DNA of 64,000 bases. It comes from Roseovarius mucosus DSM 17069. Lineage in GTDB: Bacteria > Pseudomonadota > Alphaproteobacteria > Rhodobacterales > Rhodobacteraceae. Location of the stretch: NCBI RefSeq assembly GCF_000768555.3, contig NZ_KN293990.1, positions 1 through 64,000 on the forward strand, given 5' to 3'. Within the stretch, counting starts at the first letter, position 1; each line of letters opens with the position of its first letter. The position numbers and the translations under genes were made by a program. This document shows positions 50,181-56,895 of this stretch, one piece after another. The notes beneath the pieces were generated by a model that saw only the letters and a program-made list of their open reading frames with translations, was not told the DNA's origin and did not search any database.

Positions 50181-50408
50181 ATGCAGGTCGCAAAATGGGG
50201 CAACTCGCTGGCCGTCCGTTTGCCAGCGGAGCTCGTCCGAGAGCTTGGTCTCAAGGAGGGTGATCAGATCGACCTGGTCAAGGACGACGGTCGGGTCAGA
50301 GTCCGTCGCCTTGCTCGTGCGGATGAGGTGCTGACCGGCCTGCGTCGCTTCCGGGGCAAGTTGTCCGCAGCAGAACGTCTGAGCCGCGGCGACGCGCATG
50401 AGCGCTGA
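50181..50408 (+). CDS. AbrB/MazE/SpoVT-type antitoxin
   Basis: A 75-residue swapped-hairpin AbrB domain protein: MQVAKWGNSLAVRLPAELVRELGLKEGDQIDLVKDDGRVRV. The C-terminal tail (EVLTGLRRFRGKLSAAERLSR) should bind the toxin. The ATG at 50181, behind GGAGG, is preferred to a much earlier in-frame ATG. It overlaps the PIN toxin gene by 11 nt. Confidence 0.92.
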   Translation: MQVAKWGNSLAVRLPAELVRELGLKEGDQIDLVKDDGRVRVRRLARADEVLTGLRRFRGKLSAAERLSRGDAHER

Positions 50409-50793
50409 GTTCGCGGACACGAATGTCGTTCTTTACCTGCTCGACGACGGCCCGAAGGCCGATCGCGCCGAGGTCATCCTGGGGCAGGGGCCCCGGATCA
50501 GCGTTCAGGTTCTAAACGAGTCACTGGTGAACTGCCGCCGCAAAGCTGGCCTCAGTTGGGAGGAAACAGCGGCCTTTCTCGAAGGCGTGCGCGCCTTGTG
50601 TCCCGTCGAGGATCTCACCGTGCAGACCCATGACGTCGGCCGCGCTTTGGCGGAACGCTACGGCTTCTCGATCTACGACGCGATGATCGTGGCCAGCGCT
50701 TTGGTTGCGGGGTGTACCACGCTATGGAGCGAGGACATGCAAGATGGCCTGCTGGTCGAAGGCCAGCTTCGCATCGTCAACCCCTTTGCATGA
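50398..50793 (+). CDS. PIN domain ribonuclease toxin (VapC-like)
   Basis: A 131-residue PIN domain with the acidic residues in FADTNVVLYLLDDG, Glu in VLNESLVN, and SIYDAMIVASALVAGCTTLWSEDMQDG. It should cleave RNA when freed from the AbrB-type antitoxin. The pair lies next to repA, a typical place for plasmid addiction genes. Confidence 0.92.
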   Translation: MSAEFADTNVVLYLLDDGPKADRAEVILGQGPRISVQVLNESLVNCRRKAGLSWEETAAFLEGVRALCPVEDLTVQTHDVGRALAERYGFSIYDAMIVASALVAGCTTLWSEDMQDGLLVEGQLRIVNPFA

Positions 50794-50871: not shown

Positions 50872-51732
50872 CTACTCAAGCAGCCCCAGCCTCTCAGCCC
50901 GCTCCATTAGCATCTTCACAGAGGAAGGCTGCCAGCTTGTCCGCCCGCGTGGTGTGCGTTCGCGCATCGCTTCCAGCCGGGTGCAGATCGCCTGAAGCGT
51001 GATGTCGGGGTCCGCGCCCTTGATGGCAGCGACGATGGCGGGCAGACGGTCGTCGGTTTCGCGGCGCCCGGCGCGGGCCAGCACCTCGGCCGGCAGGAAG
51101 CCGTCGCGGACAAAGGCCTTCACAGCGCGCAAGAGACGGCTTTGAGTCCAGCGACGCGCCTCGGGCAAGGGGCCGTTGATGATGCGCACCACGTCTTCCC
51201 AAGCCAAGTCGGGCCGCAGGCGGCGGACGTGGGGCACCCAGTCCTGTGCCGTCTCGTTCAGACGCTCAATGTAGCCGTCCTGTCGGGCCAGCCTCACCTT
51301 GCGCAGCGCCGCCGGATCCCGCGCGCGCAGGCCCGGATTGCCGCCAACCCGGCCTTTGGTCCGTGCGCTGGCCAGGCCAGCCTTGGTGCGTTCGCGGATC
51401 AGGGCGCGCTCGAACTCGGCCGCGGCGCCGAGGACCTGCAGGGTGAACTTGCCCTGAGGCGAGGACGTATCGATCGGATCGGTCAGCGAGCGGAAGAAGG
51501 CTCCCTTCGCCTCCAGCCGCTCGATCACCTCCAGCAGATGCGAGAGGGATCGCGCGAGGCGGTCGATCCGCACGACGACCAGCGTGTCGCCTTTGCCGAT
51601 GCGTTCCAACACCCGCGCAAGCACCGGTCGCGCACGATTGCCGCCCGAGGCCTGTTCTTCATGGATCTCGGCGCAACCCGCGGATTTCAGGGCCTGCGAC
51701 TGGGGCAGGGGGGTCTGATCTTCGGTCGATAC
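50872..51732 (-). pseudogene. Serine recombinase, major part, split by IS1111-type element
   Basis: About 287 codons from VSTEDQTPLPQSQALKSAGC to the stop. This includes the catalytic serine (VSTEDQ), RIDRLARSLSHLLEVIERLEAKG and FERALIRERTKAGLASARTKGRVGGNPGL of the Tn3 resolvase family, plus a ~130-residue C-terminal extension. The N-terminal MPLIGYAR is found at 53141-53164 on the far side of the IS. In between, an out-of-family start (MDTSRAANMGIG...) is open in frame, but functional expression is doubtful. Confidence 0.88.
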
Positions 51733-51808
51733 ATGAGGTAATCGCGGCGGCGCTGATCGAATGGATGGTGCAAGCTGCGGGGATAGAAACCTTGAAGGAG
51801 ATACCCCT

Positions 51809-52846
51809 ATGCCCATGTTTGCCGCCCTTGATGTGTCCAAGAAAGAGACGCAGGTTCATATCGTTGATGTGTCTGGAAAGTGCGTCTGGCGCGGAAAAGT
51901 GTCGACCACCCCGAGCGACATTGCGACAGTGCTGCACCCCTACGCCAAACAGCTTGAGAAAGTTGGCCTTGAGACGGGCAGCTGGAGTTCGTGGCTCTAC
52001 CATGGCCTGACCGATCTGGGTTTTGACGTCGCTTGCATGGACGCACGCCAAGCGCACGCCGCGCTTTCGGTGACAGTTAACAAGACCGATGCAAACGACG
52101 CCGAAGGTCTCGCGCATCTGTTGAGAACCGGTTTGTTCCGCGACGTGCGTGTGAAGCCATGGTGCGACCTGCGCAGACGGGCATTGCTCCGGGCCCGGGC
52201 GACGCTGGTGCGGACGGTCATCGATCTGGGCAATGCCATCCGCAGTGCCCTGCGATTGTTTGGCTTCAACATGGCCGCGGGCTCCGGCTCGGGAGGCGCG
52301 CGCGCTTTTGAGCGTCGGGTCGAACAGCACCTTGCCGAACAGCCTGGGCTTGTTCCCGTTGTGATGCCCTTGCTTGATGCCTGGCGCGCCGCACGAAAAC
52401 AGGTGGCCCGGCATGAAAGTTCGATCCGGGCCGAAGTCCGGACAGATGAGCGGTGTCAGCTGCTGATGACTGTCCCGGGGGTCGGCCATTTGAACGCGCT
52501 CGGCTTCGTAGCTGCGATCGGAGACACCAAGTCCTTTCCATCAGGGCGCACGGCAGCGGCCTGGATCGGCCTGACTCCGCGACGATACCAATCAGGTGAG
52601 ATCAATATGCAGGGCCGGATTTCGCGTCACGGCGACAAGCTGTTGCGGTCCTACCTCTATGAGGCCGCCGCCCACATCCTGACCCGCGCCAAGACCGACA
52701 GCGCCCTGAAACGATGGGGCACGGACCTGCGCGAAAAGATCGGCTTCAAACGCGCGAACGTGGCAGTGGCACGAAAACTCGCTGTGACGCTCTTTGCCAT
52801 GTTGCGCACCGGCAAGCCATTTGAGGCAGAGGGGGTGCCAGCGTAA
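51809..52846 (+). CDS. IS110 family transposase
   Basis: A 345-residue DEDD transposase. The N-terminal RuvC-like domain has AALDVSKKE (Asp), LETGSWSSWL (Glu) and NKTDANDAEGLA (two Asp). The C-terminal Transposase_20 domain has LLMTVPGVGHLNALGFVAAIGDTKSFPSGRTAAAWIGLTPRRYQSGE with the conserved serine region. The start at 51809 follows GAAGGAG. It is full length, so the element is probably active. Confidence 0.95.
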   Translation: MPMFAALDVSKKETQVHIVDVSGKCVWRGKVSTTPSDIATVLHPYAKQLEKVGLETGSWSSWLYHGLTDLGFDVACMDARQAHAALSVTVNKTDANDAEGLAHLLRTGLFRDVRVKPWCDLRRRALLRARATLVRTVIDLGNAIRSALRLFGFNMAAGSGSGGARAFERRVEQHLAEQPGLVPVVMPLLDAWRAARKQVARHESSIRAEVRTDERCQLLMTVPGVGHLNALGFVAAIGDTKSFPSGRTAAAWIGLTPRRYQSGEINMQGRISRHGDKLLRSYLYEAAAHILTRAKTDSALKRWGTDLREKIGFKRANVAVARKLAVTLFAMLRTGKPFEAEGVPA

Positions 52847-52859
52847 TCAGTCAATAAGA

Positions 52860-53125
52860 TCCACTGCTGATCGGCAGTGGTGCGTCCGCCGGGACGCCGA
52901 GCCGGTTCACCGCGTTACGCTCGCTGCAGACCCAACCGGGAGCACTGCGTTTCGAAACATTGCGGGAGCCGTTATCGGAGCTCATCATGCGGCGGCACAT
53001 GTCCGACCGCGAAGACAACCCTGACCCCGGATAGGCGGACCAAGCCACATAAGTTCAGCTGCCCAGAAGACAAAAAACGCCGCCCTTATGGCGACGTTCA
53101 AGAGAAGAAGTGCTTGACCCATAGT
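52860..53125 (+). ncRNA. Probable guide (bridge/seek) RNA region of the IS1111-type element
   Basis: The non-coding right flank contains successive stems: CCACTGC/GCAGTGG (52861-52880), GCGTCC-GCCG-GGACGC (52882-52897), and CCGGTT/AACCGG (52902-52949) enclosing a 26-nt loop. Further along, CCGACCGCGAAGAC partly matches the target strand CGACCGAAGATC next to the insertion point. IS1111-group elements encode their guide RNA downstream of the transposase. The boundaries and fold are inferred. Confidence 0.5.
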
Positions 53126-53138
53126 CCGCGATTAGACA

Positions 53139-53164
53139 ACGCGGGCATAACCGATCAGGGGCAT
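53139..53164 (-). pseudogene. Serine recombinase, N-terminal piece
   Basis: Eight codons, MPLIGYAR, then GT of the next Val codon. This is the canonical start of Tn3-type resolvases and completes the recombinase whose remainder starts VSTEDQ at 51732. Confidence 0.85.
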
Positions 53165-53345: not shown

Positions 53346-53588
53346 ATGTGGACTGTTCAGGATGCAAAAAACAAATTCAGCGCGGTGGTTGACGCAGCAC
53401 TTGCCGGCACGCCGCAAGAGGTGACGCGCCGAGGCAAGCCAGCGGTGGTCGTCCTGTCTTCGGATGAGTACCACCGGCTCCTGGAGGGTGCGGTAAAGGC
53501 GCGCGAGAGCTTTGCAGAACATCTGATGGCATTTCCCGGTAGGGATATCACGCGCGCCTCGGCCGCCCCGCGTGATGTAAGCTTCTGA
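53346..53588 (+). CDS. Phd/YefM family antitoxin
   Basis: An 80-residue protein: MWTVQDAKNKFSAVVDAALAGTPQEVTRRGKPAVVVLSSDEYHRLL is the Phd/YefM DNA-binding fold, and the C-terminal KARESFAEHLMAFPG binds the toxin. Its stop overlaps the toxin ATG by 1 nt (53588). Confidence 0.94.
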   Translation: MWTVQDAKNKFSAVVDAALAGTPQEVTRRGKPAVVVLSSDEYHRLLEGAVKARESFAEHLMAFPGRDITRASAAPRDVSF

Positions 53589-53989
53589 TGTACATTCTCG
53601 ACACTAACGTCATCTCGGCCGTGCGCCGTCCGGACCGAGCTCCGCAAGTGGCGGCCTGGTTGCGCGGCAAGGCTGAGCAGGAACTTTTTCTGAGTGTTAT
53701 CACGCTAGGCGAAATTGAGCGCGGCATTCGCCAGCAGGAGACCCGCGACCCTATGTTTGCCAGCGACCTCCGTATGTGGCTAGATCGAACGGTCTTGCTA
53801 TTCTCGGACCGACTGCTTGCTTTTGAGGCCGAGGATGCACGCATCTGGGGGCGGCTCTCAGCCGAGATTGGCCATACCGGTGCTGATCTGATGATCGCCG
53901 CGTCGGCGCTACGTCATGGCGCTGTCGTCGTGACCGGGAATATCAGTGACTTTGCGCCGACCGGTGCTGCGTTGGAAAATCCGTTCTAG
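53588..53989 (+). CDS. PIN domain toxin (VapC/FitB-like)
   Basis: A 133-residue PIN ribonuclease: MYILDTNVISAVRRPDRAP (first Asp), SVITLGEIERGIRQQE (Glu), IGHTGADLMIAASALRHGAVVVTGNISDF (C-terminal Asp pair). It pairs with the Phd antitoxin and is a second plasmid addiction module within 4 kb. Confidence 0.94.
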   Translation: MYILDTNVISAVRRPDRAPQVAAWLRGKAEQELFLSVITLGEIERGIRQQETRDPMFASDLRMWLDRTVLLFSDRLLAFEAEDARIWGRLSAEIGHTGADLMIAASALRHGAVVVTGNISDFAPTGAALENPF

Positions 53990-54018: not shown

Positions 54019-55134
54019 TCACAACCCCGCCGCTTTGGTCAGGTTCACCCGGAAACGGTCGCGACGGCGCTGGTAGCGGCGGGTCATCTCGGCCGAAGCG
54101 TGTCCGAGCTGCTTCTGGACGTAGCGCTCGTCCACTTCTGCCGAACTGGCAAGCCCGGCGCGCAACGAGTGACCAGAGAACAGCGCCAGACGTTCTTTTT
54201 CAGGCAGCTCGGATCGGATGCCGGCATCCAGGACCGTGCGCTTGATCAGACGGGCCACATGTTTGTCGTTCAGCCGCGTTTCCGAGGCGCGTTTGCCATC
54301 ACGCGAGATGCTGACGAAGACAGGGCCGAAGTCGATCTTGGCGAAGTGCAACCACTGTTCCAGAGCATGCACGGGGCAGGTCTGGTTCTTGGAGCCGCGG
54401 CCGACCTCGACTTCGCGCCAGCCGGTCTTGGCGTTGAGCCTCAGGAGCACGCCCTTGTCGAAGATCTCGATCCAGCCGCCGGAATCTGGTGTGTCGTCTT
54501 TGTGCACATCAAGACTGACGATTTCTGAACGGCGCAGACCTCCGGCGTAGCCCAAGAGCAGGATCGCCCGATCCCGGAGCCCGCGTAGATCGAAAGGAAG
54601 GGTGGCCACCATCGCAAGAATATCTTCGGCCAAGATGGCTTCCTTTTGTACCGGGGGCCGTGCGTGCTTGCGCTTGATCCCGGCCAGCACTGTCGCGATG
54701 TGCCGGTTCTTGCGATCGAGCGTGAACCCCCGCTGAGCGTAGTTCCAGGCGAGACCCGAGAGGCGCCGGTCGATTGTCGAGACCGATAGAGTAGGGGAAG
54801 AGCCCGAACCGGACGCCAGATCCGCGAGATAGAGCCCGATCATCTCAGGCGAGGGCGGCAGCGGCTCGGTGCCTTTCATCCGGCACCAGCGTGCAAAATG
54901 CGCCCAGTCCTTAGCGTAGGCCCTTAGCGTGTTGTCCGAGGCAGCGGCGCGGGCGTAGTCGCGGGCGGTTTCGACCAAGCGGTCGAGTGCGCCGGATCCG
55001 GCCACAGAGGAAGGAAGTGTGAGAGCCTCATTAGGCCCAGCTTCGCTGTTGTTGTCCTCGTTGATTGAAGACCCGCTTGCCGCCGCTGAGCGCGATTTTG
55101 TCGTTCTGCCGAGGTTTTTGAGACTGGGTGCCAT
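54019..55134 (-). CDS. Tyrosine recombinase/integrase, N-terminus replaced by transposon
   Basis: A 371-residue integrase. The SAM-like core-binding domain (ASDNTLRAYAKDWAHFARWCRM) is followed by the catalytic domain with Arg in GGLRRSEIVSLD, HSLRAG (His, Arg), KQLGHASAEMTRRYQRR (His and nucleophile Tyr). The first 12 codons (MAPSLKNLGRTT) are encoded by the left end of the TniABQ transposon; the original start lay at 58872-58884, beyond the other end. The reading frame remains open, so a nearly complete protein may still be made. Confidence 0.9.
   Translation of the reverse strand: MAPSLKNLGRTTKSRSAAASGSSINEDNNSEAGPNEALTLPSSVAGSGALDRLVETARDYARAAASDNTLRAYAKDWAHFARWCRMKGTEPLPPSPEMIGLYLADLASGSGSSPTLSVSTIDRRLSGLAWNYAQRGFTLDRKNRHIATVLAGIKRKHARPPVQKEAILAEDILAMVATLPFDLRGLRDRAILLLGYAGGLRRSEIVSLDVHKDDTPDSGGWIEIFDKGVLLRLNAKTGWREVEVGRGSKNQTCPVHALEQWLHFAKIDFGPVFVSISRDGKRASETRLNDKHVARLIKRTVLDAGIRSELPEKERLALFSGHSLRAGLASSAEVDERYVQKQLGHASAEMTRRYQRRRDRFRVNLTKAAGL
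55084..55098. repeat. 15-bp direct repeat, left copy
   Basis: CGCTGAGCGCGATTT directly abuts the left transposon end at 55099. On the minus strand it encodes KSRSA of the integrase. Confidence 0.8.
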
Positions 55135-55251: not shown

Positions 55252-56895
55252 ATGTCCGATAATTTCCCAGCTGACAAGGATTGGAACGCGGCTGAGCACC
55301 GCGCCAAAGTGCTTGCTGGCCTGCCAGAACAGCTGACCCAGGATGATGCTGAACAGGCTATGCGCCAGCTTGATGTCAGCCGCGCGACACTGTTTCGCTG
55401 GCTGAAGAGGTTCCGTGAGGATGGTCGCACCTCGGCTTTGTTACCCAGCCCGCGTGGGCCGAGGCGCGGCATGCAGCCGCTTGACCCTGATGTGGAAGCC
55501 ATCGTCTCCCGTCTGTTCAAAGACCTTTACGCCACCCGCCGCAAACCTACAAAAACGCGGTTTTGGGGCGAGATCGCTGCCAATTGCAAAGATCTAGGGC
55601 TGGCCCCACCCTCCATCCGGCGTCTGGGACGTTGGCTGGAGCGACACGACCAAGCGAAGCTGATGGCCAAGAGGGAGGGTAAGGACAAAGCCGAACGCCG
55701 TCACCTGGCTACACCCGGCACCCTCACAGCGGAGCATCCCCTGGATATCGTTCAGATCGATCATACCAAGGCTGATGTCACCGTGGTCGATCCCGTGACC
55801 CGCCGTCCGTTAGGCAGGCCCACCCTGACAGTTGCGATCGATGTGCATACCCGCATGGTTCTGGGGTTTCACCTGTCGTTGGAACCGCCGTCGCTTTTGG
55901 CTGCGGCGCTTTGCCTTACCCATGCGGTGATGGACAAATCGCATTGGCTTGTGGCGCGCGGAATCGGCACGGAGTGGCCAGCGCGGGGCATCCCCAAAAG
56001 GATTCATGTGGACAATGGCGCGGAATTCCATGCCCACGCCTTCAACATCGCCTGTTCCGAGTACCAGATTGATCTGCAGCATCGCCCACCCGGCACGCCA
56101 CGCTATGGCGGCCATATCGAGCGGCTCATTGGCACGATGATGGGGGCTGTGCATTTGCTGCCGGGCTCGCATTTTTCGAACATCTTTGAGCGAGGTGATC
56201 TTGATGCCGAAGCCGAGGCGGTGATGACGCTTAGGGAGCTGGAGGTCTGGTTAGCGCTGGAAATCACCGGCTCCTACCACGCGCGGGCACACCGGATGCT
56301 CGACACGACCCCGATTGCGGTATGGGCCGCTGGGGTGGATGAGGTTGCGCTGCGCATGCCCGCCGATCCGCGTCAGTTTATGGTCGATTTCCTGCCGTCC
56401 GAGCAGCGCGTGCTGCAACGCGATGGTTTGCATCTCTTCCATATCCGCTACTGGTCGGACGAGTTGCGCTGGTTGATGGGCCGCGAAAGCCGCAAATATA
56501 TGCTCAAATACGACCCTCGCGACCTCTCGCGGATCTTCGTGCTTACCGAGGATGGGATCATCGAGGCCCGGCCTGCCGATCTGACGCGACCAGCGATTAC
56601 GCTCTGGGAGCACAGGGCGGCGCGGCGCGCTTTACGCGAAGCCGGGCGCTGTGCGGTGGATGAAGAGCTGATCTTCTCAACCATTTTGGCGCAGCGTGAC
56701 CTCGTGGACAGCGCTGAGCGGCAGACCAAGGCGATGCGACGCCATCAGGCGCGGCGTTCGCATCTGGAACCCGGTCCGATGATCGATGTGACGCCAGGTT
56801 CAGAAGCGCCGGAAGCCCTGCCTACACCAGAAAAGAAAGCCAATGCGCTACTGGATCATCCAGGTTTCGCTGTCGAGGAATGGTATGATGACTGA
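55252..56895 (+). CDS. tniA: TniA/TnsB-like DDE transposase
   Basis: A 547-residue transposase of the Mu/TnsB type. The N-terminal HTH is AMRQLDVSRATLFRWLKRFREDGRTSAL. The DDE core has IVQIDHTKADV (Asp), IHVDNGAEFH (Asp) and YGGHIERLIGTMMG (Glu). A Mu C-terminal beta-barrel follows, and the tail likely contacts TniB. It overlaps tniB by 11 nt. Confidence 0.93.
   Translation: MSDNFPADKDWNAAEHRAKVLAGLPEQLTQDDAEQAMRQLDVSRATLFRWLKRFREDGRTSALLPSPRGPRRGMQPLDPDVEAIVSRLFKDLYATRRKPTKTRFWGEIAANCKDLGLAPPSIRRLGRWLERHDQAKLMAKREGKDKAERRHLATPGTLTAEHPLDIVQIDHTKADVTVVDPVTRRPLGRPTLTVAIDVHTRMVLGFHLSLEPPSLLAAALCLTHAVMDKSHWLVARGIGTEWPARGIPKRIHVDNGAEFHAHAFNIACSEYQIDLQHRPPGTPRYGGHIERLIGTMMGAVHLLPGSHFSNIFERGDLDAEAEAVMTLRELEVWLALEITGSYHARAHRMLDTTPIAVWAAGVDEVALRMPADPRQFMVDFLPSEQRVLQRDGLHLFHIRYWSDELRWLMGRESRKYMLKYDPRDLSRIFVLTEDGIIEARPADLTRPAITLWEHRAARRALREAGRCAVDEELIFSTILAQRDLVDSAERQTKAMRRHQARRSHLEPGPMIDVTPGSEAPEALPTPEKKANALLDHPGFAVEEWYDD

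Follow-up and report, generated by a model that had tools for sequence, protein, structure and literature searches.

What carries an insertion sequence, accurately to the base, into the catalytic-motif codons of a serine resolvase gene, and what would bring it there more than once? The question arises from a locus in the 64,000-nucleotide stretch of Roseovarius mucosus DSM 17069 DNA analyzed here (contig NZ_KN293990.1, positions 1 to 64,000; hereafter the window), in which an IS1111-type element separates the GYAR codons of such a gene from its VST codons. RNA-guided insertion into the resolvase codons by an IS1111-family element is the best explanation, and we hold it with high confidence. 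The anatomy of the element, its exact site, its recurrent insertion, the agreement between guides and targets and the conserved RNA fold are all established at the level of sequence. As a natural example of RNA-guided elements directed against the catalytic codons of another mobile system, the locus is a clear one, the resolvase being found on many plasmids. The resolvase gene lies on the - strand, opposite to the transposase gene of the element, and is cut between GYAR and VST. The two pieces of the gene and the parts of the element are the following.

50872..51730, - strand: 3' piece of the resolvase gene, (V)STEDQTPLPQ... to the stop codon (Pfam Resolvase, 1.2e-36).
53164-53139, - strand: 5' piece of the resolvase gene, MPLIGYAR plus GT, which reads ATGCCCCTGATCGGTTATGCCCGCGT (sequence; intact homologues).
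51731..53138, + strand: complete IS1111-type insertion sequence, 1,408 bp (its ends, matching core and length; the intact target allele).
51731..51737, + strand: left terminal extension ACATGAG, 7 bp, starting with the AC core (sequence; relatives; the 7+3 rule of PMC11187229).
51739..51747, + strand: left subterminal inverted repeat TAATCGCGG (inverted-repeat scan).
51809..52846, + strand: DEDD (IS110/IS1111) transposase, 345 amino acids (Pfam; relatives aligned from the same ATG).
53126..53134, + strand: right subterminal inverted repeat CCGCGATTA (inverted-repeat scan).
53136..53138, + strand: right terminal extension ACA, 3 bp, with the target's AC core next to it at 53139-53140 (sequence; relatives).

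The left junction reads GGTCGAT|ACATGAGgTAATCGCGG and the right junction CCGCGATTAgACA|ACGCGGGCATAACC, with an AC dinucleotide at each. The resolvase resumes at 51730 with A, TCG, ACC and GAA (the remainder of V, then STE), and its pieces of 26 and 859 nt make up 885 nt, the CDS length of the intact homologue on plasmid NZ_CP069372. An uninterrupted homologue in another genome of the family (L103), 90% identical to the window's resolvase across the gene, reads GATCTTCGGTCGAT|ACGCGGGCATAACC, identical over the 28 bp that span the junction. Insertion exactly in the resolvase catalytic motif, as claimed in a preliminary description of this DNA, therefore holds to the base, and the reconstruction of the empty site that it proposed is supplied by L103. 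The range that it gave for the element, 51731-53164, is right at its start and too long at its end: the element stops at 53138, and 53164 is the first base (- strand) of the resolvase ATG, so that the range takes in 26 bp of target. There is no target-site duplication; the flanks are the intact allele without extra bases when the left AC is counted in the element.

Homologues of the resolvase match 1,762 of 72,556 plasmid records, 227 of them with one place covering at least 80% of the query, and matches at E 0.001 or better, many of them short, occur in 98 of the 244 genomes of the order. One record that was examined has the resolvase gene next to a PIN/AbrB pair and repA, and near the split resolvase of the window there are likewise genes for a PIN protein and a ParA/RepA-like ATPase. 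We infer that the interrupted gene is a plasmid backbone resolvase, disabled in the window. In the element's own genome no site matches TSGANACGCGGGCRTA exactly and 37 sites match it with at most two mismatches. The reversed control gives 75 such sites, and the target is accordingly no dispersed repeat in this genome.

The transposase matches PF02371 (Transposase_20, 4.3e-24) and PF01548 (DEDD_Tnp_IS110, 6.6e-17), both above cut-off. Residues D8, E55, D94 and D97, which by position we take to be the DEDD of this transposase, are invariant in nine aligned members, as are G254, L255, S262 and G263. The non-coding stretch past the transposase stop spans 292 bp, against 78 bp ahead of the start. 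IS1111 ends have 7-bp left and 3-bp right extensions and subterminal repeats that usually measure 11-13 bp, as laid out in PMC11187229; a range of 7-17 bp is given in PMC11208160. The repeat in the window, perfect over 9 bp, falls under the usual length and within the wider range, and the extensions are ACATGAG and ACA if the unpaired base beside each repeat is counted with the repeat, the relatives being alike and having an identical core at either side. The features that sequence can test agree with the IS1111 family, with a repeat shorter than usual; membership of the group, the AC core and the subterminal repeat, all proposed earlier, are borne out by Pfam, the junctions and the inverted-repeat scan.

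The right non-coding region appears to encode a seekRNA/bridge-RNA-like molecule. An alignment (A1) of 20 right-end regions including the window's, taken from 22 distinct seekRNAs with L065 and L088 left out, yields a consensus structure of 34 pairs, 15 of them showing compensatory change in one or more of the sequences (RNAalifold), with flanking stems besides. The 5' strand of its internal loop is the predicted right target guide and the 3' strand the predicted left one.

52900..52974, + strand: predicted seekRNA target-binding module, with outer stem, internal loop holding both target guides, and inner stem (RNAalifold, 20 sequences, A1 columns 45-131).
52915..52924, + strand: predicted right target guide UUACGCUCGC, 8 of 10 positions identical to the target complement TTATGCCCGC (GYAR codons), one more rU:dG.
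52950..52958, + strand: predicted left target guide UUUCGAAAC, whose TCGA and AC match the target GTCGATAC, the complement of VST, with a mismatch at -1.

For the left guide the comparison was made against GGTCGATAC, the complement of the VST codons. The right guide at 52915-52924 comes ahead of the left guide at 52950-52958, an order read from sequence only; IS1111 seekRNAs place the complement of the top strand 5' of the match to the bottom strand, according to PMC11187229. Folded as a single sequence, the region is not more stable than its shuffles (z -1.01), and Rfam at gathering thresholds gives no match in the window. Another candidate for the right guide, CCGCGT at 52910-52915, was discarded: in the consensus fold CCGCG belongs to the outer stem, and it is the loop strand, made up of the 10 nt that follow, which agrees with the target.

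Do the loop strands follow the target from element to element? Across 18 elements, the last 5 nt of the left guide before the core are identical to the element's own target at 78 of 90 positions, against a permutation maximum of 59; across 16 elements, the right guide is so at 129 of 160 positions, against 109 (20,000 permutations in each case, with relatedness ignored). These are 18 and 16 of the 20 rows of A1, the others having a missing end or too short a flank, and in the right-guide test every target, own or permuted, could be shifted by 0 to 2 nt. Reduced to distinct targets, the scores remain above every permutation (left, 51 against a maximum of 43, 11 elements; right, 80 against 76, 10 elements). 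An anchor-free survey of 156 transposase hits comprised 67 distinct elements with both ends and 72 without, the remainder being duplicates, and 59 of the 67 were tested. The 37 AC-core elements score 290 against a permutation maximum of 267 for the left guide and 296 against 268 for the right (10,000 permutations); in the 22 AG-core elements the right guide scores 174 against 173, and the left guide, at 158 against 164, is not significant. The earlier proposal of a guide RNA in the right flank, matched to the resolvase and with loops that pair with the target once the flank is folded, is upheld in that two loop strands are predicted to pair so, with an agreement above all 20,000 permutations.

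Agreement is uneven among individual elements. The left-guide match of L039 is 0 of 5, and L065 and L088, which stand outside the anchored test, combine a good left match with a poor right one. The right guide ends 2 nt short of the core end in all four members of the window's clade that were tested; in 12 others the distance is 0 nt (8) or 1 nt (4). Between close relatives guide and target change in step: L035 differs from the window at target position -4 and in the left guide alike (C to G), its serine codon being TCC and the window's TCG, and L034 and L035 differ in the third base of the Tyr codon (TAC, TAT), with right guides that differ to match. The right guide of the window has the C of L034 though its own site has TAT, which leaves a mismatch at the third base of Tyr. 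The guide score at the own site is equalled or beaten by 10, 3 and 1 of 29 intact alleles (L103-L131 and L178, minus L109) for the window, L034 and L035, respectively. Against the same 29 alleles, G at +6 is found in four of four occupied genes (L036, with its decayed right end, counted) and in nine of the intact ones (Fisher one-sided 0.017), a suggestive difference in a small sample.

Close relatives of the element occur in five named genomes (L034-L038), on one plasmid (L039) and in further genomes; L062 and L063 are apparent repeats of L034 and L036. Seven of the eight distinct clade loci with a readable left junction adjoin resolvase VST codons: the window, L034, L035 (where the match covers only a stretch of the gene), L036 (for which the short motif VSTDDQ is the sole basis of assignment), L037 (the element being truncated), L039 (no right end found) and L043 (a remnant that has lost its left end). 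The eighth, L038, belongs to the clade and is truncated by the end of its contig; other sequence flanks it on the left. The preliminary description had suggested looking for other copies at GYAR/VST codons and had named copies at unrelated sequences as evidence against its view; seven of the eight loci are at these codons and one, L038, is not. Its suggestion that the guide evolved to hit resolvase genes is sustained as regards recurrent targeting and is too strong as regards selection. Among 20 flanking frames scanned, Pfam matches are to Resolvase (L163), DUF2726, IS1595-type and IS240-type transposase and gamma-glutamyltranspeptidase, and the other 15 have none; the group does not, then, target resolvases as a rule. 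No relatives of the element were found in viral contigs.

Beyond the element, L039 and L043 (neither with a right end found) resemble each other: both continue with a stretch that has inverted CACGACAA/TTTGTCGTG repeats and with another resolvase gene, which appears to be intact. The recurrence of this repeat stretch and second gene behind both elements suggests a shared rearrangement.

Could the repeated site instead be the legacy of a single old insertion, inherited with the resolvase by descent or plasmid transfer rather than targeted? The resolvases and the elements of the clade both diverge, as such a history would have it, and only three clade genes enter the tree test, L035 being too short, L039 too divergent and the others retaining too little of the gene. 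Yet in the resolvase tree (36 of the 37 collected sequences, the short L035 being omitted; L109 is labelled intact in it despite the intact motif not having been found there) L034 is sister to an intact gene (support 100/98). A single clade of the interrupted window, L037 and L034 genes is rejected (p-AU 0.00028; 35 sequences, L039 also being out for its long branch), and the guides, as seen above, change along with their targets. A second lineage, whose transposase is 50% identical to the window's, bears on the same point. It is carried by L006/L044, one other genome, and by L163, plasmid pOT1-5 of Haematobacter massiliensis, and it sits at GATCAG|ACC, 16 bp from the VST insertion point, in reverse orientation relative to the gene and with other guides. 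The two elements at this DQT site match at 1,447 of 1,448 positions, whereas the resolvases that they interrupt are 88% identical over 830 bp, and one clade for these two resolvases is likewise rejected (p-AU 0.029); we infer that this lineage struck the resolvase gene at least twice. Inheritance of one old insertion is, on these grounds, very improbable. Two lineages with different guides converge on one resolvase gene.

In RNA-guided insertion as proposed here, a short RNA would be made from the region behind the transposase gene, and one internal loop would carry both guides, one pairing, on the right side of the insertion point, with the top strand and the other, on the left side, with the bottom strand. 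Pairing with opposite strands on either side would confine insertion to one position and one orientation. The guides of the window's lineage would correspond to the GYAR|VST codons in a serine resolvase common on plasmids of the family, and the element would therefore repeatedly land in that gene and break it. That the RNA is made, and is bound and used by the transposase, is probable by analogy with published relatives, which also point to a circle as the intermediate and to an inactive split resolvase. One further feature would have meaning in such a circle.

53114..53119, + strand: TTGACC, a possible -35 element of a promoter that the circle junction alone would create (17 bp, then CA|ACAT).

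TTG occurs at this fixed spacing in 24 of 37 AC-core elements; the -10 is weak.

More improbable still than inheritance is a sequence-specific transposase that reads the target directly, with the right non-coding region serving as a structured end only. An analysis of DNA sequence observes no RNA, which leaves room for this reading, but the loop strands of the predicted RNA track the target across elements, and PMC11187229 has ISEc11, an IS1111 member, needing the region and the RNAs of four members co-purifying with the transposase. Hardly credible is the notion that the CGACCG...AAGA segment, which resembles GACCGAAGA of the resolvase and was the preliminary description's lead for the target-binding loop, is the target guide: it is near-constant in 20 elements of differing targets, and AAGACRAC instead tracks the element's own right end (17 of 19).

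52981..52985, + strand: possible right donor guide CUCAU, complementary to ATGAG at the left tip, weakly indicated (read from the guide table).
53004..53009, + strand: CGACCG, constant scaffold in a conserved stem (alignment, consensus fold).
53012..53019, + strand: probable left donor guide AAGACAAC, resembling the right end plus core (..TAGACA|AC; base-before-core agreement).

The segment CGACCGCGAAGAC varies at two positions only among the 20 elements with their many targets, and was rejected as a target guide; with CGACCG in a scaffold stem and AAGA in the probable donor-guide segment, neither would be one. The near-constant GAAGACRAC resembles the element's own right end and core (TAGACR|AC), and its R base agrees with the base before the core in 17 of 19 elements, L065 and L088 having been added by hand to this count; L036, with a decayed end, and L088 disagree (Fisher 0.00025 on the 18 elements with A or G). 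CUCAU is present in all three elements with the tip ATGAG, and CCCAU in 8 of the 10 with the tip ATGGG (exceptions L006 and L168).

A guide adapted to a protein motif, and not to one DNA sequence, would have third-position U pair with T- and C-ending codons by way of rU:dG; if so, one element could strike synonymous GYAR|VST variants in many resolvases. We regard this as a tentative idea, with the balance against it. Four clade members have readable guides and flanks. Eight of the nine non-identical cells in their right guides are rU:dG compatible, as opposed to 2 of 22 in twelve relatives, and eight of the nine lie at codon third positions (codons read by hand). The IS621 complex contains non-canonical pairs, G53 and G161 each being paired with T (PMC11208158). 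The left guide has its mismatch at the third position of Val in all four members. These four share descent, so the U may be drift tolerated by wobble and not the outcome of selection for breadth. Since a codon-aimed guide must cope with synonymous changes, the elements allow a direct test of natural mismatch and rU:dG use, and mismatch use by bridge or seek RNAs also bears on the off-target behavior of derived tools.

IS4321 and IS5075 are IS1111 members that target the terminal inverted repeats of the Tn21 family. The window's element is like them specialized on parts of other mobile elements, theirs being transposon ends and its own codons. With ISEc11, ISKpn4, ISPst6 and ISPa11, as these appear in PMC11187229, it shares a DEDD transposase, subterminal repeats, 7+3 bp extensions, a downstream non-coding region, the complement of the top strand placed first and the absence of a target duplication; unlike these four, which use a short linear site, attC or REP, it targets serine-resolvase catalytic codons, and its right guide has possible rU:dG pairs. 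ISEc21, in the same paper, is an RNA-guided element that likewise interrupts catalytic-motif codons of another element's recombinase, but it belongs to the IS110 group, with an upstream RNA and reversed guide order, and its target is a DDE transposase, not a serine resolvase. IS621, too, has a core dinucleotide and a bridge RNA that carries donor guides and, in its target loop, a left and a right guide; it differs in being of the IS110 group with its RNA in the left end (PMC11208160 and PMC11208158). The mechanism is thus already known, and ISEc21 is a published precedent for catalytic-codon targeting. The literature searched, which included parts of PMC3925955 and PMC3281130, yielded no account of an IS1111 element whose program is directed at the codons of a serine resolvase; within that literature, the serine-resolvase catalytic motif as a target is new, as is one resolvase gene family struck by two guide programs.

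Some relatives have targets of other kinds. The element's own genome holds a truncated relative (L042, L002; G000:C14, about 1100-1750) with a scaffold-type seekRNA and a right end, in which 9 of 10 positions are shared between the right guide CUGAUCGAGU and the right flank. The AG-core elements L011, L013, L015, L017, L052, L072, L084 and L085 are among those with a target around AGC[AG]G[AC], similar flanks and right guides AATGTCTGCT or similar; their target is perhaps a dispersed repeat. L040, L166, L172 and L173 share the target TTTTCAC|ACAGCCT or a close variant, and L172 and L173 lie near IS1182-type transposase genes, so that this target may be the end of such elements.

Around the insertion itself, PIN-domain genes at 50398-50793 and 53346-53989 flank the split resolvase, the second behind a Phd/YefM-type antitoxin gene. 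Farther along, a transposase gene at 55252-56895 with rve and Mu-transpos_C matches, presumably TniA-like, adjoins a phage-integrase-family gene on the - strand at 54019-55134.
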